Source: Nitrospirota bacterium
GTDB taxonomy: Bacteria; UBA2233
Assembly: GCA_011620345.1 (NCBI GenBank)
Contig: WOZJ01000057.1
Span: 165,246 to 229,245, forward strand
DNA: 64,000 nt
Reading direction: 5' to 3'
Shown here: positions 6,826-20,757 of the stretch, one piece after another
Position numbering within the stretch: the stretch's first letter is position 1
Layout of the letters: each line of letters starts with the position of its first letter
Notes under the pieces: model-generated
The model's input: the letters and a program-made list of their open reading frames with translations, nothing else
Databases searched by the model: none
Told to the model about the DNA's origin: nothing
Translations under genes and position numbers: made by a program

Positions 6826-8682
6826 TCATGCCCCATTAGGATTCGCAACGTGGAAGAGGGCTGTCTTTAAGGTTCCTCCAAAGGCATGGCATTGGTTGCA
6901 GAGTGCGGGGGCGTTGTGCTCCTTCTTGTCCACATGGCAGGCTAGGCACGTGTCCCTCGAGGACAGCTTCCAGTTATGGGGCTTGTGGCAATCGGTGCAA
7001 GCGGCGCTGGGATGGCCGCCAGCGGCATGGAGCCCTCCTAGGCCAGTATGACAACCTTTGCAGTCGTTCTGCGGTTGGCGAGCTCCTGCGAGCTGATGGC
7101 AAGTCCCGCAATCGCCGGACATCATGGGCGCGCGCTTATTCAGCTTGTGGCATTCTGCACAGTCGATCGGCGGCCGGTAGCCAGCAGCATGGCATTGGTT
7201 GCAGAGAATTTCTTTGTGACGACCTTCCAAGGGAATTGGGTGCCAGGACATGTCACTCTTGGGAAAGGTACCGGCCAAGGGGGTAAAAGGCCCACGTTCA
7301 GGCATGGTATGGCAAGCGGTGCATTCATTGGTTACAACCTTTCCTTCTGAGGAGACGTGCTTGCCGTCGTGGCAACGGAAGCATCCAGGCCAGTTCCTGT
7401 GGCCAATGTTCATGGCGTAGGTTTTCCAGTTGACGTTCATGGCTGGAAAGACAGAGCGGTCGTAAATCCCGGAAATGGCCCGGACGGAAGCATTTAGATC
7501 CGCCTTGCGGTATTGGAAGACGGTTGGATAGTTTTCTTTGTAAAACCCCTCGATCGCTCGAGCCATGCGAGTGTGTGCATCGCTGCGGTCCTTGTAGGAA
7601 GCTACGAGCGTGTCCACCGCAAGCTTTTTCATCCACGGAAGGTCTTTGGGGATGATGCCGCCGACCAGTGCCTCGTCTACAGCCTGGTCAGGGGCCAAGA
7701 AAATGTGCGTTGGGCGGTTGTGGCAATCCATGCAATCCATGGTGTGGCGTGGAACGGCCTCTAACTGCTCTTTGGAGAGTTTCGTGTTTTTATCGGTGTA
7801 TGTCGTGATTCTCCCTGTTCTGTTGTCCTTTACGCGGACCCAAGGGATTTTCTGAAAGTGACGGTCTTCTGCGGCAAAGGTAACCTGGTTCTCGATAACC
7901 ATGTGCCAATGAACCCCAGAGTTTATCCCGAGGTTTGGGCTTCCTCCGCCCGTTTTCACGAGCAGGCTGACCTGTTCGGCCGTATTCTTCTCGTCGTAGC
8001 GAAAATGTGGGATTTGGAGCATCCGTGCCCCGTAGAACTTTTGCGGCCAGTGGCATTCTTCGCATGTTTCGCGTGCCGGGCGCAGGTTGGCAACGGGAAC
8101 GGGAATTGGTCGCTCGTAGCTGTTGGTTAATACGGCCCATACTTGTCGCATTCCCGAAAGCTTCGAGCGAACGTACCAGGAAGCGCCAGCTCCCACATGG
8201 CAATCCACGCAGCGAACACGGGCGTGGGGCGAATAAAGGTATGCGGTGTGTTCGGGTTCCATGACAGTATGGCATACCTTGCCGCAAAAGGTAACGGACT
8301 CCGTAAAAAGGAAGGCGTTGTAGCCTGCAAAGGCTAAAAGAAGGAAGAGGATAGAGCTTGCGGCCAACGCAAGTGCGAATTTTCTCCTATGGCTAGGGTC
8401 ATTCAAATCGAGCCTGGGGAATGGGGGCGCTTCTGTGATTCCAAGCCTACGCCTTCGGAGGCTTTCAAGGGCCATGCCAAACAGGAAAAGGGCTAGGCCA
8501 AGCGTAAGGATGCCTGGGAACACCATGTACGTAAAGATGCCTATGTACGGGCTGGAAGGCGCTAACCCTATCCCCCACAGGGCGCTTCCTAGGATGAACA
8601 AGGCGCTGATAGCGATAATGAAAGCGCCAAAGTAGCTCACGGTGTTCTTATACAACCCTACGCTACTGGAGCGTTCCCCCAC
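6826..8682 (-). CDS. NapC/NirT-type membrane-anchored multiheme cytochrome c with extended C-terminal multiheme region
   Basis: N-terminal TM segments, FCGKVCHTVMEPEHTAYLYSPHARVRCVDCHVG (NapC/NirT-like); counted 12 CXXCH plus 1 CX3CH motifs. Confidence 0.9.
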   Translation of the reverse strand: MGERSSSVGLYKNTVSYFGAFIIAISALFILGSALWGIGLAPSSPYIGIFTYMVFPGILTLGLALFLFGMALESLRRRRLGITEAPPFPRLDLNDPSHRRKFALALAASSILFLLLAFAGYNAFLFTESVTFCGKVCHTVMEPEHTAYLYSPHARVRCVDCHVGAGASWYVRSKLSGMRQVWAVLTNSYERPIPVPVANLRPARETCEECHWPQKFYGARMLQIPHFRYDEKNTAEQVSLLVKTGGGSPNLGINSGVHWHMVIENQVTFAAEDRHFQKIPWVRVKDNRTGRITTYTDKNTKLSKEQLEAVPRHTMDCMDCHNRPTHIFLAPDQAVDEALVGGIIPKDLPWMKKLAVDTLVASYKDRSDAHTRMARAIEGFYKENYPTVFQYRKADLNASVRAISGIYDRSVFPAMNVNWKTYAMNIGHRNWPGCFRCHDGKHVSSEGKVVTNECTACHTMPERGPFTPLAGTFPKSDMSWHPIPLEGRHKEILCNQCHAAGYRPPIDCAECHKLNKRAPMMSGDCGTCHQLAGARQPQNDCKGCHTGLGGLHAAGGHPSAACTDCHKPHNWKLSSRDTCLACHVDKKEHNAPALCNQCHAFGGTLKTALFHVANPNGA

Positions 8683-9009: not shown

Positions 9010-9435
9010 CTAAGGCCTTGCAGCTGCCGCCTGTGAGATCCCCTTGACAGTCATCGTCCCATCCGGCTGGACGCTGTGGCAATCCTGGCAGCGGCCGCCG
9101 TAGAACATGACAAAGTGGTTGTTTTCTCCCAAAAGGTGTCCTTGATGGAGAACTTTATAGAACTCTGGTGCGGCCGACCCGTTGTGACAAGCTTGCATGC
9201 ATTGGGTAGGGGTGTTGCCCATGTTGGAGTCTACCTGGGGGTGCCTACCTTCTCTTTGCATTAAAACCATCATTGCGGGCAAGGAAAAGAGCGATGTGAC
9301 CCCTTGTGGGGTATGGCAAGTCAGGCAGACAACGTCCTGATCGGCGGCCTTGGCTTTTGAAAGGCCGAAGCCAGGTACCGCTACCATGCCTATTAGGCCA
9401 AGCCCAAGAAAGGAAAGCGCCGTTTTCTTTTTCAT
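9010..9435 (-). CDS. Small exported cytochrome c (putative triheme)
   Basis: Sec signal peptide; CLTCH, CMQACH (CX3CH) and CQDCH motifs; AGGAGG-type RBS. Confidence 0.82.
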   Translation of the reverse strand: MKKKTALSFLGLGLIGMVAVPGFGLSKAKAADQDVVCLTCHTPQGVTSLFSLPAMMVLMQREGRHPQVDSNMGNTPTQCMQACHNGSAAPEFYKVLHQGHLLGENNHFVMFYGGRCQDCHSVQPDGTMTVKGISQAAAARP

Positions 9436-9482: not shown

Positions 9483-9683
9483 TTAATGGATCAAGCTCGT
9501 GACTCCGGGCATGATGTCGAGGAAGATCGGCCCAAGGATTGGAATCTGAGCAATTGAGTTCACTATGGGGAAAATGACTCCCATGAGCGTTGCGGCGAGG
9601 TCGGCCGGAATCGTGATGGGTAGGTTGACAATTGGTTGAATTAGCGGGCCGACAACCGGCTTGATCGAGGCAGCCGTGTTCAT
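9483..9683 (-). CDS. Small hydrophobic Pro/Ile-rich protein of unknown function
   Basis: 66 codons (MNTAASIKPVVGPLIQPIVNLPITIPADLAATLMG...), strong AGGGAGG upstream of ATG, co-directional with and 47 nt from the triheme cytochrome gene. Confidence 0.6.
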   Translation of the reverse strand: MNTAASIKPVVGPLIQPIVNLPITIPADLAATLMGVIFPIVNSIAQIPILGPIFLDIMPGVTSLIH

Positions 9684-9884
9684 GGAAAACCCTCCCTTTT
9701 TTGTTTAACTAGAACATTGGCGCAAAAGCAGAACATATGCATACATTCAGGAGGAATTTTAGTCTCGTAACTGATGCCTTGTCAAGCCCTCCATACCATA
9801 TGGTCCGTTTGACCATTTTGTGCATAATGTGCTAGGTTACAACCCAATATTGAGATTGAAAACTGGGCATCATTGAGGAGAACG

Positions 9885-11933
9885 ATGAAATTCATATTAA
9901 AGTGTAGTTGGGGTAGGATGAGCAGAATGTTGATGCCTTTAGGAAGAATCGGGCTCCTCGCTTTTTTTTGTTTAGGTCTTTCCGGGCCAACGGCATACGC
10001 GCTTACCAACGAAGATTGCCTGATGTGCCATGCCAACATGGAGCCAAGACTCGATGCATCCGTATTTTCTCAAAGTGCCCATGGCGGGCTGAACTGCCAA
10101 GACTGCCACGAGAACATCCAAGACGTTCCCCATCAAACGCAGCTCAAATTGGTTCGCTGCGGGAATTGTCATACGCAGGAATTCGCGGAATATCAGCTGG
10201 GGGTCCATGGCAAAGCTTTGGCCAATGGAACGAAAGACGTCCCTTCCTGCGCTTCTTGCCATGGAACTCATGATATTTTCCCTAAAAGTGATGTTCGCTC
10301 CAAAGTAAACCCCCTGAACCTCCCCGGGGTTTGTTCGGGATGCCATGCCAGCCAAGAGATCACTCGCCGCCATCCTCTGCCATCTCCGGAATTTATCGAA
10401 AGTTACCAGAAGAGCGTCCATGGGCAAGGTGTGTTGAAGAGTGGCCTGGTGGTCGCGGCCGTATGCTCGGACTGTCACGGTGGCCATAGAATCCTGCCCG
10501 CCTCGGACCCCGCGTCCTTGGTCAATCCAAAAAACATCCCTAAGACCTGTTCTAAGTGCCATGCAGGGATTTTTAGGGATTTTACCAGGAGTGCTCACGG
10601 AGAGGCCTGGAGGGCTGGCAAGAGTTACGGGCCTGTGTGTACCACTTGCCATACGGCGCACAGTATTTCCTCACCCCGTACGGCGGCGTTTCATGGGGGG
10701 ATTGCCGAAGAGTGCGGAGGGTGCCATGTCGACAGGACCCCTAGCTATAGAGATACCTTCCATGGTCAAGCCACTTCGCTCGGTCTTATTCGGGCGGCAA
10801 CCTGCCCGGACTGTCATACCGCGCATTTGAACCTTCCAAAAGAAAACCCTCACTCCAGCATCAACCCCAAAAATCTCCCCGGGACTTGCGGCAGGTGCCA
10901 TGGACAGGTGTCCAAAGGGTTTATTCAATACGACCCCCATCCTGATCCAAAGGACAAATCAAAGAACGCTGTCGTTTTCTACACGTACACGTTCATGAAT
11001 TGGCTGCTTTTGGGGGTGTTTGCCTTTTTTGGCCTTCATTCCGCACTTTGGATCCAGCGGAGCCTCGTTGCTTCGGTGCGTGGGGAGTTCCCTAGGCTTG
11101 ACAAAGAGGGGCCATGGGTCCGGCGCTTTAGCCAGACCAACCGGATGACCCACCTAGTCATCGTGATCAGCTTCTTGCTCCTTGCAGCTACGGGACTGCC
11201 CCTGAAGTTCCACTACACACCCTGGGCAAAGGTTGTAGAGGCCATATTTGGCGGGATCGAGGTGACTCGCTATCTCCACAAGCTTTTTGCCGTCGTGACG
11301 TTTGGATATGCGATTACGCATGTCAGCTATCTTGTCTACCGCATTTACAAAAAAGGCGAGCTAAACCTTCTGTACGGCCCTTTCAGCCTGACTCCGCGCC
11401 CCAAGGATGCGCTTGACCTTCTTGCAAACCTTCGCTGGTTCCTCTACATGGGGCCGAGGCCCAAGCTCGGACGCTGGACCTACTGGGAGAAGTTCGATTA
11501 CTTCGCCGTGTTTTGGGGAATTCCGATCATCGGAGGATCCGGACTCATGCTTTGGTTCCCGGGTTTTTTCACAAAATTCCTCCCCGGCTGGGTTCTGAAT
11601 GTGGCCATGATCGTCCACTCCGAAGAAGCGCTTATGGCTATCGGGTTTATCTTCCTGTTCCACTTCTTCCACACCCACTTAAGGCCGGAAAGTTTTCCTT
11701 TAGACACCGTCATCTTTACTGGAAGCATGCCCTTGGAGCGGCTCAAGGAAGAAAGGCCGGAGGAGTACGAGCTTTTGGTCAAGAAAGGCGAGCTTGAACG
11801 CCTGATTGTCCCGGCTCCATCGAATAGTTTGCTGCGTGCCTCTCGGATCTTTGGCTTTGTGGCGCTTACCGTGGGGCTTTGCCTGATTTGGGCGATCCTG
11901 ATCACGGCGGTACTCCATATGTTGGCTTTATAA
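9885..11933 (+). CDS. Multiheme cytochrome c (11 CXXCH) fused to a C-terminal b561-type membrane domain
   Basis: Signal peptide, 11 CXXCH motifs, then several TM segments with spaced His (FHYTPW, RYLHKLFAVV, ITHVSYL, IVHSEEALMA, HFFHTHLRPESFPLDTVIFTG); GAGGAGA before ATG 9885. Confidence 0.9.
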   Translation: MKFILKCSWGRMSRMLMPLGRIGLLAFFCLGLSGPTAYALTNEDCLMCHANMEPRLDASVFSQSAHGGLNCQDCHENIQDVPHQTQLKLVRCGNCHTQEFAEYQLGVHGKALANGTKDVPSCASCHGTHDIFPKSDVRSKVNPLNLPGVCSGCHASQEITRRHPLPSPEFIESYQKSVHGQGVLKSGLVVAAVCSDCHGGHRILPASDPASLVNPKNIPKTCSKCHAGIFRDFTRSAHGEAWRAGKSYGPVCTTCHTAHSISSPRTAAFHGGIAEECGGCHVDRTPSYRDTFHGQATSLGLIRAATCPDCHTAHLNLPKENPHSSINPKNLPGTCGRCHGQVSKGFIQYDPHPDPKDKSKNAVVFYTYTFMNWLLLGVFAFFGLHSALWIQRSLVASVRGEFPRLDKEGPWVRRFSQTNRMTHLVIVISFLLLAATGLPLKFHYTPWAKVVEAIFGGIEVTRYLHKLFAVVTFGYAITHVSYLVYRIYKKGELNLLYGPFSLTPRPKDALDLLANLRWFLYMGPRPKLGRWTYWEKFDYFAVFWGIPIIGGSGLMLWFPGFFTKFLPGWVLNVAMIVHSEEALMAIGFIFLFHFFHTHLRPESFPLDTVIFTGSMPLERLKEERPEEYELLVKKGELERLIVPAPSNSLLRASRIFGFVALTVGLCLIWAILITAVLHMLAL

Positions 11934-13849: not shown

Positions 13850-15280
13850 GTGAGGCTAACGCAGGGGTTTGTAGGGTTAATTTTTGTTGGTCTAGGTCTG
13901 GCTCCTACAATGGCTTTGGCTGAGACGACGACCCAGCAAGAGCTCGGTCAATGCATGTCTTGCCATGCCAAGCCAGGGCTCGTGAAACGCTTGGGAAAGA
14001 ATGAGAAAGTCTCGCTAACCCTCGACCTTCAAGCCTACCGGGCCTCGGCCCACAGCTCGCTCGTTTGTCAGGATTGCCACACGCGGTATTCCACGAAGGC
14101 TCATCCGGTAGGTTCGTATACGAGCCGGGAGGAGCTCGCCAGGGAGCACTCCGGGGCATGCACGAGTTGTCATTCGCTCGATCAGCTAAGCGCGTTGCCC
14201 GTCCATGAAGATGTCCTGAAGCCAGGGCATCCGGTTGCATGCTCGAGTTGTCATGGGGCTCACGAGATCCAGCGGGTCGTGGGCGGCGGGGCTATGGTGA
14301 AGGAGCGTGCCTACTGCCTTTCGTGTCACGAGCAGCACATTGAGATGACCTTCGAAAATGGGGAGACCAAGGATATTTATGTCGAGCTTCGTTCGCTCCT
14401 TGCCTCTCCGCATGCGAGCCTTGCATGCTCGGACTGTCACGTGGGGTTTTCAAGAGATCACCACCCGGATCGCTCGTTTCAGGACGGGAGGTATTACACG
14501 CTTGTTTTATCCGAGAGCTGTAAGCGTTGCCATTTCGACAAGTATACCCGGACTCTAGACAGCATGCATTACCGAGTCCTCATGAAGGGAAATGCGAATG
14601 CGCCGGTATGTACCGACTGTCACGGCTCGCACGGTATCTTGCCTGTCGGCAAGGACCATTCCATAAGCGCGAAGCGCTGCATGCGATGTCATGAGACCAT
14701 TTATACGACCTATACAAAGAGTGTGCATGGAAAGGCCTTGTTAGGTGAACACAACATGGATGTGCCCGTATGTGCCGACTGCCACAAGGCACACGAGATT
14801 CAAGACCCAAGGACGCTAACCTTTCGTGACCGGATCCCGGAGATGTGCGGGAACTGCCATGCCAACAAAGAGCTCATGTCTCGCTATGGGCTTTCCCCAG
14901 CAGTAGTGAAAACATACCTCCAGGATTTTCACGGAGTTACGCTTTCGCTTTACAAAATGCAAAGGGAACTAGAGGGTACAAGCTCGGCCAATCCTATTGC
15001 TGTATGTTCAGACTGCCACGGGATCCATGACATCCAGAAGCTCTCGGAACAAGAAACGGGCCTTGTACGCCAAAACCTGCTCAAGCGCTGCCAGGCATGC
15101 CATCCTGGGGCCACCCAGCGGTTTCCCGATGCTTGGCTCTACCACTATGAGCCAAGCCTTGAAAAGGCCCCCTTGGTCTACGCAGTAAACCTTTTTTACA
15201 AAATTTTCATCCCGTTCATGGTCGTGGGATTGCTGTTGCAGGTTTTCTTACATGCCTGGCGCTACATCGTGAACCGTTAA
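13850..15280 (+). CDS. Multiheme cytochrome c (13 CXXCH) with C-terminal TM anchor
   Basis: Signal peptide, 13 CXXCH motifs counted, C-terminal TM (FIPFMVVGLLLQVFLHAW); GTG start. Confidence 0.92.
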   Translation: MRLTQGFVGLIFVGLGLAPTMALAETTTQQELGQCMSCHAKPGLVKRLGKNEKVSLTLDLQAYRASAHSSLVCQDCHTRYSTKAHPVGSYTSREELAREHSGACTSCHSLDQLSALPVHEDVLKPGHPVACSSCHGAHEIQRVVGGGAMVKERAYCLSCHEQHIEMTFENGETKDIYVELRSLLASPHASLACSDCHVGFSRDHHPDRSFQDGRYYTLVLSESCKRCHFDKYTRTLDSMHYRVLMKGNANAPVCTDCHGSHGILPVGKDHSISAKRCMRCHETIYTTYTKSVHGKALLGEHNMDVPVCADCHKAHEIQDPRTLTFRDRIPEMCGNCHANKELMSRYGLSPAVVKTYLQDFHGVTLSLYKMQRELEGTSSANPIAVCSDCHGIHDIQKLSEQETGLVRQNLLKRCQACHPGATQRFPDAWLYHYEPSLEKAPLVYAVNLFYKIFIPFMVVGLLLQVFLHAWRYIVNR

Positions 15281-15285
15281 AAAGG

Positions 15286-16050
15286 GTGGGAACCGTGACC
15301 GAACGAAAAATGGCCTTTGTGCAACGCTTGTCTTGGGTGCGAATCATCGAGCACTGGGTGAATGCTTCCGTGTTCATCCTTCTTGTCGTTACAGGGCTTT
15401 CCCAAAAGTTCTATACGTTCGAGCTGTCCCAGCGCTTGATCCTGTTTTTTGGCGGCATTGATTCGACGCGCTTGATTCATCGTGCCTGCGGGGTGCTGTT
15501 TGCCGCCGTTTTGGTTCTCCACATGACCGTCGCGGTTGTAGGGGTCGTGCTGAAGCGTTGGCAGCCGACGATGCTCATCAACAAAAAAGACTTCTTTGAC
15601 GCCATAGACAACCTAAGGTACTACTTTGGGCTTTCCGATCACCCGGCAGCTTGCGACCGTTATGATTACAAGCAGAAGTTCGAATACTGGGGAGTGGTCA
15701 TGGGAGGTATTGTCATGGTGGCTACGGGGTTTGTCCTTTGGTTTCCGACGGTGGCGACGTATCTGCTACCCGGAGAGCTAGTGGCCGTATCGAAGGCCAT
15801 CCACACGAACGAGGCTATGCTTGCCTTCCTGATCATCTCCATCTGGCATATCTACAACGCCGTCTTTTCCCCGGAGGTGTTTCCTTTAGATACGGTGATC
15901 TTTACGGGGAAGATTTCGAGGGAGCGCATGATGCACGAGCACCCTCTAGAGCTTGCAAGGCTCGAGGGAAAAAGCTTAGAAGAGCTCCTTCAAGAAAAAG
16001 AGGGCTTTTCTCATGCATCCAGCCCTTTAAAGCCCCCTCCGAACGACTAA
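15286..16050 (+). CDS. b561-type cytochrome b membrane subunit
   Basis: TM protein with RIIEHWVNASVFILLVVTG, LIHRACGVLFA, AIHTNEAMLAFLIISIWHIYNAVFSPEVFPLDTVIFTG; same C-terminal signature as the membrane domain of the 9885-11933 protein. Confidence 0.85.
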   Translation: MGTVTERKMAFVQRLSWVRIIEHWVNASVFILLVVTGLSQKFYTFELSQRLILFFGGIDSTRLIHRACGVLFAAVLVLHMTVAVVGVVLKRWQPTMLINKKDFFDAIDNLRYYFGLSDHPAACDRYDYKQKFEYWGVVMGGIVMVATGFVLWFPTVATYLLPGELVAVSKAIHTNEAMLAFLIISIWHIYNAVFSPEVFPLDTVIFTGKISRERMMHEHPLELARLEGKSLEELLQEKEGFSHASSPLKPPPND

Positions 16051-16066
16051 CCCAAACAGGCCACGC

Positions 16067-17854
16067 GTGCACCTCCCCCAATTAACTCGCCGCATCCTCC
16101 TGCTCGTTATCGCAAGCCTTCTGCCGCTCGTTCTGGGCTATGCCCTGATCCTTGCCGCTTCGGTCCGGTATGGCAATCAAGGTGCGCTACGATTTACGCA
16201 GACCAGGGCAAGGATTCTTTCCGAATCGGTTAAGCTCCATTTGGAGAAAAACCTCGTTTGGCTCTCGGACATCGCGCTCGGTCTTTCTTTTGGCGAGCCC
16301 GCCAAGGAGACCCTTAGACAGTCAAACCCCTACTCGTTGCTCCGTCATGGGTTGATCGTCACCGATCTAGAGGGGAACGTCAGGGCCTCATGGCCGGAAA
16401 CAAGCATTCGCAAGCTTGCCCCGGAAGTGCTGGCTAGGTTGAAGGAGGAAGGTTCCCCGAGCAGACCTTTCGTATCCGGCCTCGTGGCCAAAGAGCCCTC
16501 GGGCCGAACCACAGGCTTTATGCTCGCGCCGGTACGCGAGAGCGCCGGCAAGATTAAGGGTTGGGTGGGAGGAGAGTTGGACTTCCAAGACCCTGTTTTC
16601 GTTCGGCTTCTTGAAGCAGGCAGAGAGCCTTCAGACAACTTCGTCGCAATTTTAGACGATGCCGGTCGGGCTTTTGCGTTTATAGGAGACTCTAGGGCCT
16701 TTCTCGTTAAAGGGCATGCTGGACTGATTAACCAGGCCCGCTACGATGAGAGCCCTCGGACTGTTCGCTGCAAAGGGTGTCACAAGAAAGGCGCTCGTGG
16801 GGGCGTGTTGGCCGTTGCTTCCGTTACGCTCGCCCCTTGGTGCGTCGCGATCTTAACCGTACCGAATGGTCCATCGGGTTCTCCGCTTGGCCTGTGGAAG
16901 GCCTTTGGGCTTTTGGGATTGGGATTGTCGCTGGGTGGACTTATTCTTGGCGTGGGGATGTCCCGCTCGATTCTTCAGCCTATACGCTCACTGATCGAAG
17001 GGGCAAAAAGGATCGGGGACGGTGATCTCTCCATCCCCGTCCCCATCCAAGGAAGCGACGAGATTACGGTTTTGGCGGAAGGATTGGAGCAAACCCGGCT
17101 TAGGCTCCTCGAGTCGTTTCTAACGATCCAACGGGTTAATGAAGAGCTCGAGGCCAAGGTTCAAGAGAGGACCATGCAGGTGCAGTCGCTCTTAAGGAAG
17201 GTCATCGGCTCCCAAGAGGAGGAGCGGAAGCGAATTGCACGCGAGTTACACGACGTAGTCTTGCAGGACATCGCCGCATTTTTGATGAAGCTAGACGTGC
17301 TCGCGTTGAGCGAGCGCAAGGATCAAGGACGAATCGAGAAGATGCGCGGGCTTTTGACCAAAGCGATGGAGGATATTCGTGCCATCATTCAGGGCTTGCG
17401 TCCGAGTATTCTTGATGATTTGGGGTTGGATGAGGCCCTAAGGTGGGTTGTGGACCGAAGGTTTCAGGATCAGGAATGCGAGGTCTCGATTGAGGTCAAG
17501 GGCTATTCTAAGGGGCAGTTGGACTCAAACATAGAAACTGTTACGTTCCGGATTGCCCAAGAGGCCCTCACCAATGTCCTTAAGCATGCAAGAGCGAGCC
17601 GCGCTGTCCTCCGGCTGAGTTGTTCGAGTCGTAGGCTTACCCTTTTCGTTCATGATAACGGGGTAGGGTTCGCGGCCGCCGAGTACAAGAAAGAGGTCCG
17701 TACGACGGTCGGGTCGGGCATTGGGCTCCAGGGTATGGCAGAAAGGGCCTCGCTTGTCGGGGGGAGGCTCAAGATCCGGTCATCTCCGGGTAGAGGGTCC
17801 CATGTGCGGCTATTCATCCCTTTAGGGAGGTCAGTAGATGAAACAGCCGATTAG
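16067..17854 (+). CDS. NarL-type (HisKA_3) sensor histidine kinase with HAMP and an extracytoplasmic CXXCH motif
   Basis: Two TM regions, HAMP, QEEERKRIARELHDVVLQDIAAFLMKLD H-box, HDNGVGF and GSGIGLQGMAERA ATP-lid; CKGCH at nt 16769-16783 before TM2. GTG start. Confidence 0.92.
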   Translation: MHLPQLTRRILLLVIASLLPLVLGYALILAASVRYGNQGALRFTQTRARILSESVKLHLEKNLVWLSDIALGLSFGEPAKETLRQSNPYSLLRHGLIVTDLEGNVRASWPETSIRKLAPEVLARLKEEGSPSRPFVSGLVAKEPSGRTTGFMLAPVRESAGKIKGWVGGELDFQDPVFVRLLEAGREPSDNFVAILDDAGRAFAFIGDSRAFLVKGHAGLINQARYDESPRTVRCKGCHKKGARGGVLAVASVTLAPWCVAILTVPNGPSGSPLGLWKAFGLLGLGLSLGGLILGVGMSRSILQPIRSLIEGAKRIGDGDLSIPVPIQGSDEITVLAEGLEQTRLRLLESFLTIQRVNEELEAKVQERTMQVQSLLRKVIGSQEEERKRIARELHDVVLQDIAAFLMKLDVLALSERKDQGRIEKMRGLLTKAMEDIRAIIQGLRPSILDDLGLDEALRWVVDRRFQDQECEVSIEVKGYSKGQLDSNIETVTFRIAQEALTNVLKHARASRAVLRLSCSSRRLTLFVHDNGVGFAAAEYKKEVRTTVGSGIGLQGMAERASLVGGRLKIRSSPGRGSHVRLFIPLGRSVDETAD

Positions 17855-18497
17855 GGTTTTAATCGTGGACGATCATGCACTCTTACGTGAGGGCATTGCG
17901 GCCATCCTTCAGACGGCCGAGGACATCCGAGTTGTGGGCGAGGCGGCTGACGGGCTTGAAGCGATTAAAAAGGTTGAAGTGTTGCACCCCTCGATCGTTC
18001 TTATGGACATAGCCATGCCCGGGCTTGGCGGGCTCGAGGCGACGCTAGAGATTAAAAAACTGTTCCCGGGGGTTCGGGTGCTCGTGCTTACCCAGTACGA
18101 CGACAAAGAGTACGTTGACAGGTTTCTCAAGGCAGGCGCTTCTGGTTTTATCCTTAAGCGTGCGCTGGGTAGGGAGCTCATCGATGCGGTTCGGTCCGTC
18201 GATAAGGATGAGGTTTATCTCCATCCAGCAATCGTCAAGGACGTAGTCGAAGGATATTTAACGAAGGACAAGCCCGCTGCTTCTCCCTATGACAGGCTTA
18301 CAGATAGGGAGAAACAAGTCCTCAAATTGCTTGCAGAGGGGCATACTCACAAAGAAGCGGCGAGCCTGCTGGGAATTGGCGTGAAAACCGTTATTACCCA
18401 CCAGGCTCACCTCCAAGAAAAGCTTGGGCTCTCTAGCCGTTCCGAACTGATCCGGTTCGCCATCCAGCAAAAAATCATCCGAATCGACACTCCGTAA
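17838..18497 (+). CDS. NarL/LuxR-family response regulator
   Basis: REC domain (VLIVDDHALLREGI, VLMDIAMPG, VLVLTQYDDKEYV) and LuxR HTH (LTDREKQVLKLLAEGHTHKEAASLLGIGVKTVITHQ); overlaps the kinase gene by 17 nt. Confidence 0.95.
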   Translation: MKQPIRVLIVDDHALLREGIAAILQTAEDIRVVGEAADGLEAIKKVEVLHPSIVLMDIAMPGLGGLEATLEIKKLFPGVRVLVLTQYDDKEYVDRFLKAGASGFILKRALGRELIDAVRSVDKDEVYLHPAIVKDVVEGYLTKDKPAASPYDRLTDREKQVLKLLAEGHTHKEAASLLGIGVKTVITHQAHLQEKLGLSSRSELIRFAIQQKIIRIDTP

Positions 18498-18550: not shown

Positions 18551-18739
18551 TTACTGAACCTTCGGCGCTGTGGGAGCTCCGCTCTTGGGCGGACACTTGG
18601 CAATTTTGTCATCACCATGGCATTTCATCCCGCACCCGGGCTTGGCATTCCCACACATGTTGGGCTTTGCCAGAAGGGGAGCGCTAAGAATGCAGAGCGC
18701 CACGAATGCCGAGGATAAACAAAGGGCTGCGCGCTTCAT
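18551..18739 (-). CDS. Small exported Cys-rich protein, CX3CH family member 1
   Basis: 62 aa; signal peptide then KPNMCGNAKPGCGMKCHGDDKIAKCPPKSGAPTAPKVQ; AAGGAGG upstream; two paralogs nearby. Confidence 0.8.
   Translation of the reverse strand: MKRAALCLSSAFVALCILSAPLLAKPNMCGNAKPGCGMKCHGDDKIAKCPPKSGAPTAPKVQ
18554..18625. repeat. Direct repeat copy A (partner 20208-20279)
   Basis: 72 nt with 3 mismatches to the partner by hand alignment, coding the identical 24-aa tail KCHGDDKIAKCPPKSGAPTAPKVQ. Confidence 0.9.
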
Positions 18740-18812
18740 GCAATACCTCCTTTTTTGGTTGTGTTGTTGACCTCCAAGAATAACTTCCACCGCCATTTCT
18801 CTTTTTTCAAGG

Positions 18813-18841
18813 AGTATACCAAGAATAGTCACAAAAGTGAA
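18813..18841 (-). promoter_or_regulatory. Predicted promoter of the 18551-18739 gene
   Basis: On the minus strand: TTCACT, 17-nt spacer, TATACT (extended TTGGTATACT), upstream of the small exported protein gene. Confidence 0.5.
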
Positions 18842-19012
18842 GGGCCTTTTATGCCATTAGGAAAGAAACCATGAAACTATACCATAAGGATCTAATGAGG
18901 ATATATTGTACATTCCATGCGAACAAATCATATTATTGCAGGGTTGCATTCTCGTTATTTTTGCTTTAAAATTCCATTGAGTTCAACATTCAACCCCAAA
19001 AGGAGGGAGCCT

Positions 19013-19246
19013 ATGAAAAAGCTCGCGTTTCTTACGGCTGCGGGGTATTTCGCCCTTGCATTTCTCTTTGCACCCGGTGTGTGGGCAAGGTCCAGCATGT
19101 GTGGGCAGGCAAAGCCCGGGTGTGGGGGGAGTTGCCACGGCGACGACAAGGTGCAGAAGTGCCCCAAAAAGAAATCTGGTGCTCTACAGCAATTCTTCGG
19201 CCTGGATGGCTTGGAGTCTGGCTTGAGTAAGAGCTTGCTTCAATAA
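19013..19246 (+). CDS. Small exported Cys-rich protein, CX3CH family member 2
   Basis: 77 aa; signal peptide then RSSMCGQAKPGCGGSCHGDDKVQKCPKKKSGA plus a C-terminal extension; AGGAGGGAG RBS. Confidence 0.8.
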   Translation: MKKLAFLTAAGYFALAFLFAPGVWARSSMCGQAKPGCGGSCHGDDKVQKCPKKKSGALQQFFGLDGLESGLSKSLLQ

Positions 19247-19269
19247 CCCAACAAAAGAAGGAGGTTGCG

Positions 19270-19461
19270 ATGAAACGCCTTCAGATTGGAATCCTAAGCA
19301 TTGCCGTACTCTGCGGCTTCGGGATGTTTTTGGGCTCGCAGGCCTTTGCTTCAGGCGGGCTGACGGTTACCGGGTGTCCTTGCCATGGGGCCATGAAAAC
19401 TCAGGTTCAGCAGCCGAGCATGGATGGCCTGCTCAAGGCTCTCCTTGGAAACGCCAAGTAG
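19270..19461 (+). CDS. Small exported protein with CPCH motif
   Basis: 63 aa; signal peptide, then SGGLTVTGCPCHGAMKTQVQQPSMDGLLKALLGNAK; AAGGAGG RBS. Confidence 0.72.
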   Translation: MKRLQIGILSIAVLCGFGMFLGSQAFASGGLTVTGCPCHGAMKTQVQQPSMDGLLKALLGNAK

Positions 19462-19492
19462 CGGGAAATAAACCATAAAGGGAGGAGACGGC

Positions 19493-19774
19493 ATGTCGAG
19501 CAAAAAGGCTATTGCAATAGGAGTAATGGCGGGCCTGATGGGGAGTGCGGCGTTAGCTAGCAACGCGTTTGCCATTGCGCAGACCGGGCTTCTGGGTACG
19601 CTCTCCGGTCCACTCATGCAACCTTTGGTTGCCTGGGGTTGTGCACACACTTGCCACGAGAGCGAGGTTTTCCCGGATGTCGTTGCCCATAACGCTGGCC
19701 TTTTGAAGGCCCCGGTCAGCGGCCAGGCCTCTCAAGAAGCTCTCCTAAAAGCGCTTCTTGGGCAAGCACAATAA
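19493..19774 (+). CDS. Small exported protein with CX3CH motif
   Basis: 93 aa; signal peptide, WGCAHTCHESEV, C-terminal EALLKALLGQAQ resembling the neighbouring DGLLKALLGNAK; GGGAGGAG RBS. Confidence 0.75.
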   Translation: MSSKKAIAIGVMAGLMGSAALASNAFAIAQTGLLGTLSGPLMQPLVAWGCAHTCHESEVFPDVVAHNAGLLKAPVSGQASQEALLKALLGQAQ

Positions 19775-19799
19775 ATACAAACCAAGAAGGGGTAGGAGC

Positions 19800-20084
19800 A
19801 TGAAAAAGCTTGGACGTTTATCCATTGCCGGTATTTTAGGAGTAGGGCTAATGGCCACTCCTTTGTGGGCTTCGGGAACGGTAAGGCCGTTGCAGTCCGT
19901 AGGTAACATCTGCGGGCTCTACATGTGTCATCCGATGATTGAATCCGTAACCTCATTGGGAGGAAACGTTTTGGGTTCTATGGGACTTTTCTCCATGCTC
20001 GAAAACTGGGAAACAGTCGGCATGGGCTCGCCCTACTACAAGGCAGACGTCCAGCGAACGTTGCGCTATAGCCCAGAGCGTTAG
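19800..20084 (+). CDS. Small exported protein with CX4CH motif
   Basis: 94 aa; signal peptide, NICGLYMCHPMIE; purine-rich RBS (GGGGTAGGAGC) before ATG. Confidence 0.72.
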   Translation: MKKLGRLSIAGILGVGLMATPLWASGTVRPLQSVGNICGLYMCHPMIESVTSLGGNVLGSMGLFSMLENWETVGMGSPYYKADVQRTLRYSPER

Positions 20085-20118
20085 CCCTGTTTGAGCAAGG
20101 CGTTGTTTGCTCTAAGCC

Positions 20119-20157
20119 AATCAAGCCCTGGCCTTTAAAGGCCAGGGCTTGATTTTT
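20119..20157 (+). terminator. Hairpin terminator after the small-protein operon (possibly bidirectional)
   Basis: Perfect 36-bp palindrome aatcaagccctggcctttaaaggccagggcttgatt followed by TTT; lies between convergent genes. Confidence 0.8.
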
Positions 20158-20204
20158 AAGGGGTAAAGCTCCGACAGGATAAATTACTTACCCTGTCGTC
20201 CTTA

Positions 20205-20393
20205 CTACTGAACCTTCGGCGCTGTGGGAGCTCCACTCTTGGGCGGGCACTTGGCAATTTTGTCATCACCGTGGCATTTCCCGGCGCATCCAGGCTTGGC
20301 TTGCGGACACATGGCAGGGCGGGCCATCAAGGGGGCGGTGAAAATCCCTAGCGCAACGAGCGCCGCGGACACCCCAAAAACTGTGCGCTTCAT
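20205..20393 (-). CDS. Small exported Cys-rich protein, CX3CH family member 3
   Basis: 62 aa; signal peptide then RPAMCPQAKPGCAGKCHGDDKIAKCPPKSGAPTAPKVQ; AAAAGGAGGAG RBS. Confidence 0.8.
   Translation of the reverse strand: MKRTVFGVSAALVALGIFTAPLMARPAMCPQAKPGCAGKCHGDDKIAKCPPKSGAPTAPKVQ
20208..20279. repeat. Direct repeat copy B (partner 18554-18625)
   Basis: See copy A; about 1.65 kb apart, same orientation. Confidence 0.9.
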
Positions 20394-20757
20394 AAAGCTC
20401 CTCCTTTTCGTTTGTGTTGCCGGCTTTCATTGAAGCCTTGCATGCTAAGCGCAACATGCGCTCCAAAGTATACCAAAAAAATTGAGAACATATACTCCAT
20501 CAACGGCGCCCTTGCGTGTCTCGGGCTATGCATCCATCAGGAAGCCGTACTGCACCTGTCGGCAGGAGTCTTGGTATCGAGCATGCCAGGTATAGGCTTT
20601 GATCGTAGAGTCAGCCCTTAATGGATGGTATCGAAAGCGTTCATGGTGTGCTTTTACTCAGAAACTATGGCCACCGGATGATCGTTTGCTGGGATTTTTT
20701 GGACGCTTCCCCTTCCCGTAGCCTTGGGATTGGACTATAGTAAAAGAAACAACTTGA

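Follow-up and report, generated by a model that had tools for sequence, protein, structure and literature searches.

Six small genes, here P0001 to P0006, lie in the window (the whole 64,000-nucleotide stretch that was analyzed) between guaB and the histidine kinase/response regulator pair at the end of a cytochrome locus. For proteins of this locus, ImcH-like and CbcL-like are names based on architecture, not on a tree. The features are, in order along the window:

6826-8682, minus strand: ImcH-like multihaem cytochrome with three N-terminal hydrophobic helices, a CX3CH (CGKVCH) beside the third and then 12 CXXCH
9010-9435, minus strand: small trihaem cytochrome, 141 aa, middle motif CX3CH (CMQACH)
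9873-11933, plus strand: CbcL-like protein with 11 CXXCH and a cytochrome b561 domain
13850-15280, plus strand: 13-haem periplasmic cytochrome (split CbcL-like partner)
15286-16050, plus strand: cytochrome b561 membrane partner
16067-17854, plus strand: histidine kinase (HAMP, HisKA_3, HATPase) with one CXXCH (CKGCH) in its extracytoplasmic sensor part, a possible haem-c redox sensor
17838-18497, plus strand: NarL/LuxR-type response regulator, convergent with P0001
18551-18739, minus strand: P0001, 62 aa, CGMKCH; signal peptide plus KPNMCGNAKPGCGMKCHGDDKIAKCPPKSGAPTAPKVQ; family A
18813-18841, minus strand: promoter-like site of P0001, extended -10 (TGGTATACT), consensus match only
19013-19246, plus strand: P0002, 77 aa, CGGSCH; family A core plus a C-terminal tail; opens the four-gene plus-strand run
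19270-19461, plus strand: P0003, 63 aa, CPCH (CX1CH); LLKALLG tail; probably a diverged relative of P0002/P0004
19493-19774, plus strand: P0004, 93 aa, CAHTCH (CX3CH); LLKALLG tail; probably a diverged relative of family A
19800-20084, plus strand: P0005, 94 aa, CGLYMCH (CX4CH); sequence unrelated to the other five
20119-20154, plus strand: perfect 36-bp palindrome with T-rich DNA after it, which probably terminates the plus-strand run
20205-20393, minus strand: P0006, 62 aa, CAGKCH; family A; near copy of P0001

The first-pass annotation had described these genes as consecutive small ORFs of 62 to 94 codons, each with a signal-peptide-like start, a purine-rich RBS and a single C-x(n)-C-H (n = 3, 3, 1, 3, 4 and 3 from P0001 to P0006), and none with the canonical CXXCH. 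All of this was borne out, at the same positions, and the RBSs are good. The signal-peptide-like N-termini have AxA-like sites (as judged by a crude script), and the mature chains are ca. 36 to 70 aa long. The plus-strand genes (P0002 to P0005) are separated by only 23 to 31 bp, with purine-rich RBSs. Codon-usage scores were positive for the six ORFs, but low in the range of large genes, and 1 to 8% of wrong-frame windows scored as high. An extended -10-like sequence, TTGGTATACT, is common to the upstream regions of P0001 and P0006 (the P0006 copy at ca. 20466-20480), as a consensus match only.

The motif was compared with its background in a 427-kb sample of the genome, where 132 ORFs of 35 to 130 aa passed a crude filter for signal peptide and RBS. 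Eight of them contained C-x(1-4)-CH, i.e., the six of the cluster, a paralogue on contig C34 and a frame that is probably non-coding. When mature parts were shuffled, the motif was regained in 0.6% (P0003), 0.5% (P0004) and 0.15% (P0005) of trials. Given the genome-sample counts and the shuffling results, it is very unlikely that C-x(n)-CH occurs in these ORFs by chance.

Three of the six (P0001, P0002 and P0006) form family A, together with the C34 paralogue and the orthologue of this paralogue in G001, the other UBA2233 genome. Two genomes represent the phylum UBA2233 (“Ca. Cutipiota”), and their sources are oil-contaminated soil and a tailings pond (PMC11382960). The pattern C-x6-C-x3-C-H-x7-C is invariant in family A, with 17 invariant positions over the five members, and the motif His is kept in all five, in two species. 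The four invariant Cys and the His fall within ca. 21 residues, in a conserved AKPG...D...KCP frame; since there are thus four mature Cys, CX3CH accounts for just a part of what is conserved in three of the six proteins. P0001 and P0006 share 78% DNA identity over 231 bp, including ca. 27 bp upstream. The family is under purifying selection (dN/dS of ca. 0.35 for P0001-P0006 and ca. 0.27 for the C34/G001 orthologues). The C34 copy adjoins a lone TolC-like gene, an arrangement that the two genomes of the phylum share:

L008 4405-4632, minus strand: family A copy beside the TolC-like gene
L006 1477-1713, plus strand: family A copy beside the TolC-like gene

Paralogy seems to extend beyond family A. 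Among 21 pairwise comparisons (1,000 shuffles per pair, counts uncorrected for the number of comparisons), no shuffle was as good as the real alignment for P0003-P0004 (similar in their LLKALLG tails), P0004-P0006 or P0004-C34, two were as good for P0002-P0004 and 11 for P0002-P0003 (GC--PCHG over GCGGSCHG), and P0005 had no relation to the other five. These alignments are most simply read as descent of P0003 and P0004 from a P0002-like gene, with loss of the outer Cys. Having lost these and yet kept C-x(n)-CH, they would mark the latter as the retained core, and it is the sole unit kept in all members.

Profiles from Pfam, NCBIfam and PHROGs gave nothing above threshold for any of the six; with Pfam and NCBIfam, no known metal-binding small-protein family was matched, and the sole results were two weak ones that scored less than the curated cut-offs. 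A profile search of the PDB found no similarity to any solved structure, and the AlphaFold model of P0006 (from four sequences) had a pLDDT of 53, too poor for fold comparison. The earlier statement that no family could be recognized therefore stands as far as databases are concerned, but it had missed that several of the six are paralogues of one another. In the GTDB contigs, the UBA2233 orthologue was the only relative, viral contigs and plasmids held none, and relatives outside the phylum were not found in the databases and genomes searched. Three weak extra matches of the family profile against 386 genomes were judged to be spurious frames, and a weak match in the window's own genome (G000:C15) was discarded, as it lies over unrelated large ORFs.

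Conservation in a related genome, which the first-pass annotation had named as a criterion, was found only for the separate C34 copy in the second species; the cluster region is missing from that assembly. Contig C59 of G001 starts inside guaA, and the assembly lacks counterparts of guaB and of the entire cytochrome locus. From 6.5 to 22.7 kb of the window there is a single match of 97 bp, which we take to be probably a tRNA gene. This looks like an assembly gap. P0003, P0004 and P0005 have no match in G001 but, since the region is missing there, the absence of the cluster is not evidence against the genes.

A haem-attachment (Ccm) system is encoded ca. 28 kb from the cluster, in the order CcmC, CcmB, CcmA, an unknown protein, CcmF and CcmE:

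L043 10708-16060 (G000:C50, 150.7-156.1 kb): CcmCBA-x-CcmF-CcmE cluster

The 236-aa protein between CcmA and CcmF had no Pfam match, and CcmE, with CPSRY, is of the CxxxY (Cys) type. CcmH was not detected in the window's genome, while the same search found it in four control genomes, E. coli among them; as the genome is 97% complete, the case for a predicted absence of CcmH is strong but not final. The Ccm system of Methanosarcina acetivorans has a CXXXY CcmE and is without CcmDHI (PMC9084895), and its attachment of haem to CXXXCH and CXXXXCH was shown by mass spectrometry (PMC11024163). Because the Ccm system found here resembles that type, the chief objection to haem falls away for five of the six proteins; CX1CH is not covered. 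The first-pass annotation had stated that CX3CH and CX4CH can bind covalent haem, for which the precedents are proven (PMC11024163), and that CX1CH is not a recognized haem spacing. No experimental CX1CH haem site was found in the literature, and the one paper found to mention CXCH gives it only as a search pattern. In this organism CX3CH very probably carries haem, to judge from the CGKVCH next to the third membrane helix of the ImcH-like protein and from the CMQACH of the trihaem cytochrome, which aligns with CVRCH of the solved relative 3ouq (E 0.0034). One CX3CH beside membrane helices is typical of ImcH homologues (PMC6295460).

We tentatively favor the view, at somewhat less than an even chance, that the six are non-canonical monohaem c-type micro-cytochromes. 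On this view each is an exported microprotein centered on a single Cys-x(n)-Cys-His site, and most of the six are paralogues that arose by duplication and divergence next to an electron-transfer locus. How haem is attached, where the proteins reside, what they partner with and how they are regulated is our inference: the proteins would be exported by Sec and receive haem from the Ccm system with its Cys-type CcmE and no CcmH. They would then serve the adjoining ImcH/CbcL-type cytochromes as electron relays in the periplasm or at the outer surface, or as haem-protein partners, possibly under the control of the adjacent haem-motif kinase/regulator pair. The earlier suggestion of monohaem peptides serving the neighboring cytochromes has thus become more plausible, with ImcH/CbcL-like neighbors, CX3CH at haem positions and a Ccm system lacking CcmH, and it is strengthened by the retention of C-x(n)-CH in P0003 and P0004, which lost both outer Cys. 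Several points argue against it. CXXCH is never used, which would be odd for ordinary cytochromes, the mature chains are tiny and have no Pfam or PDB similarity, and two of the Cys conserved in family A are not required for haem. A distal ligand is not obvious in the C34 and G001 members, which lack a second His and a clear Met; in P0003 to P0005, by inspection, a His or Met is available. A bolder version, in which the CcmH-less Ccm system has allowed the spacer to become free (1, 3 or 4, never 2) and the proteins are minimal monohaem relays of ca. 36 to 70 residues for ImcH/CbcL-type conduits of an uncultured phylum, including the first CX1CH haem c site, would be unlikely, though not negligibly so.

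The main rival to haem is that these are haem-free exported metal or thiol microproteins, with family A binding Zn, Cu or Fe by its four Cys and the His and the others by Cys/Cys/His, as periplasmic buffers or chaperones. We consider this rather unlikely but a serious contender, and the thiol/metal set unrelated to haem that the first-pass annotation had offered stays viable, with two more invariant Cys in three of the proteins, a distal ligand lacking in some and CX1CH in one. The close packing of the invariant Cys and His in the AKPG...D...KCP frame, the avoidance of the canonical haem spacer in every member and the habitats on record for the phylum (tailings pond and oil-contaminated soil; PMC11382960) all agree with it. 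However, no metal-binding family was matched, P0003 to P0005, without the outer Cys, would have only three ligands, and the neighbors are cytochromes and not metal transporters. Nor does the C34 copy lie beside an RND pump, but beside a lone TolC-like gene; a CusF-like reading of this copy was rejected, given the lack of pump genes. Small secreted peptides with a surface, matrix or antagonistic role that are held together by disulfides, with C-x(n)-C as the disulfide loop and the His incidental, would explain the signal peptide, the short mature part with an even number of Cys, the LLKALLG-type tails and the fast divergence and duplication. This reading is distinctly doubtful, however, as all members retain the His that follows the second Cys, even with differing spacers, and no immunity, transport or modification genes are found nearby.

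That some of the six ORFs are not genes appears very improbable. The low codon scores and the unmatched P0003, P0004 and P0005 point that way, but every ORF has an RBS, tight spacing, a signal-peptide-like start and the motif, P0003 and P0004 resemble family members, and the gap in the other assembly makes absence there uninformative. A row of short signal-peptide proteins with few Cys also recalls bufferins, Sec-exported RiPP precursors whose Cys are modified by an MNIO enzyme. No modification genes adjoin the cluster, and MNIO (PF05114) was not found in the 97% complete genome by a search that was positive in control genomes; we rejected this reading as hardly credible.

The nearest known counterparts are MmcA of M. 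acetivorans and ImcH of Geobacter, like the six exported proteins with C-x3/4-C-H. In MmcA, the atypical sites are proven to carry haem by way of a CcmH-less, CXXXY-type Ccm system (PMC11024163, PMC9084895), and ImcH, with one CX3CH in its homologues (PMC6295460), has a like protein in this very locus. However, these are multihaem proteins with a single atypical site amid many CXXCH, whereas in the six the atypical site stands alone in ca. 36 to 70 mature residues, and one is CX1CH. If they do carry haem, they would count among the smallest cytochromes c and broaden the accepted rule of haem attachment, tying relaxed spacing to a CcmH-less Ccm system. If haem-free, they would form a new family of exported Cys/His microproteins that is linked to an electron-transfer locus, in a two-genome phylum. 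Annotation that counts CXXCH alone overlooks such proteins. Also short and exported are the small periplasmic cytochromes c7 (PpcA type), haem proteins that work for membrane cytochromes of the ImcH/CbcL type. They have three CXXCH in ca. 70 residues and no sequence similarity to the six; the locus itself holds a small trihaem cytochrome with one CX3CH. Just upstream of the gene for the latter is a small hydrophobic ORF with an RBS (9483-9683, minus strand, 66 aa), which shares GPLIQPIV/GPLMQPLV with P0004 (10 of 1,000 shuffles as good).
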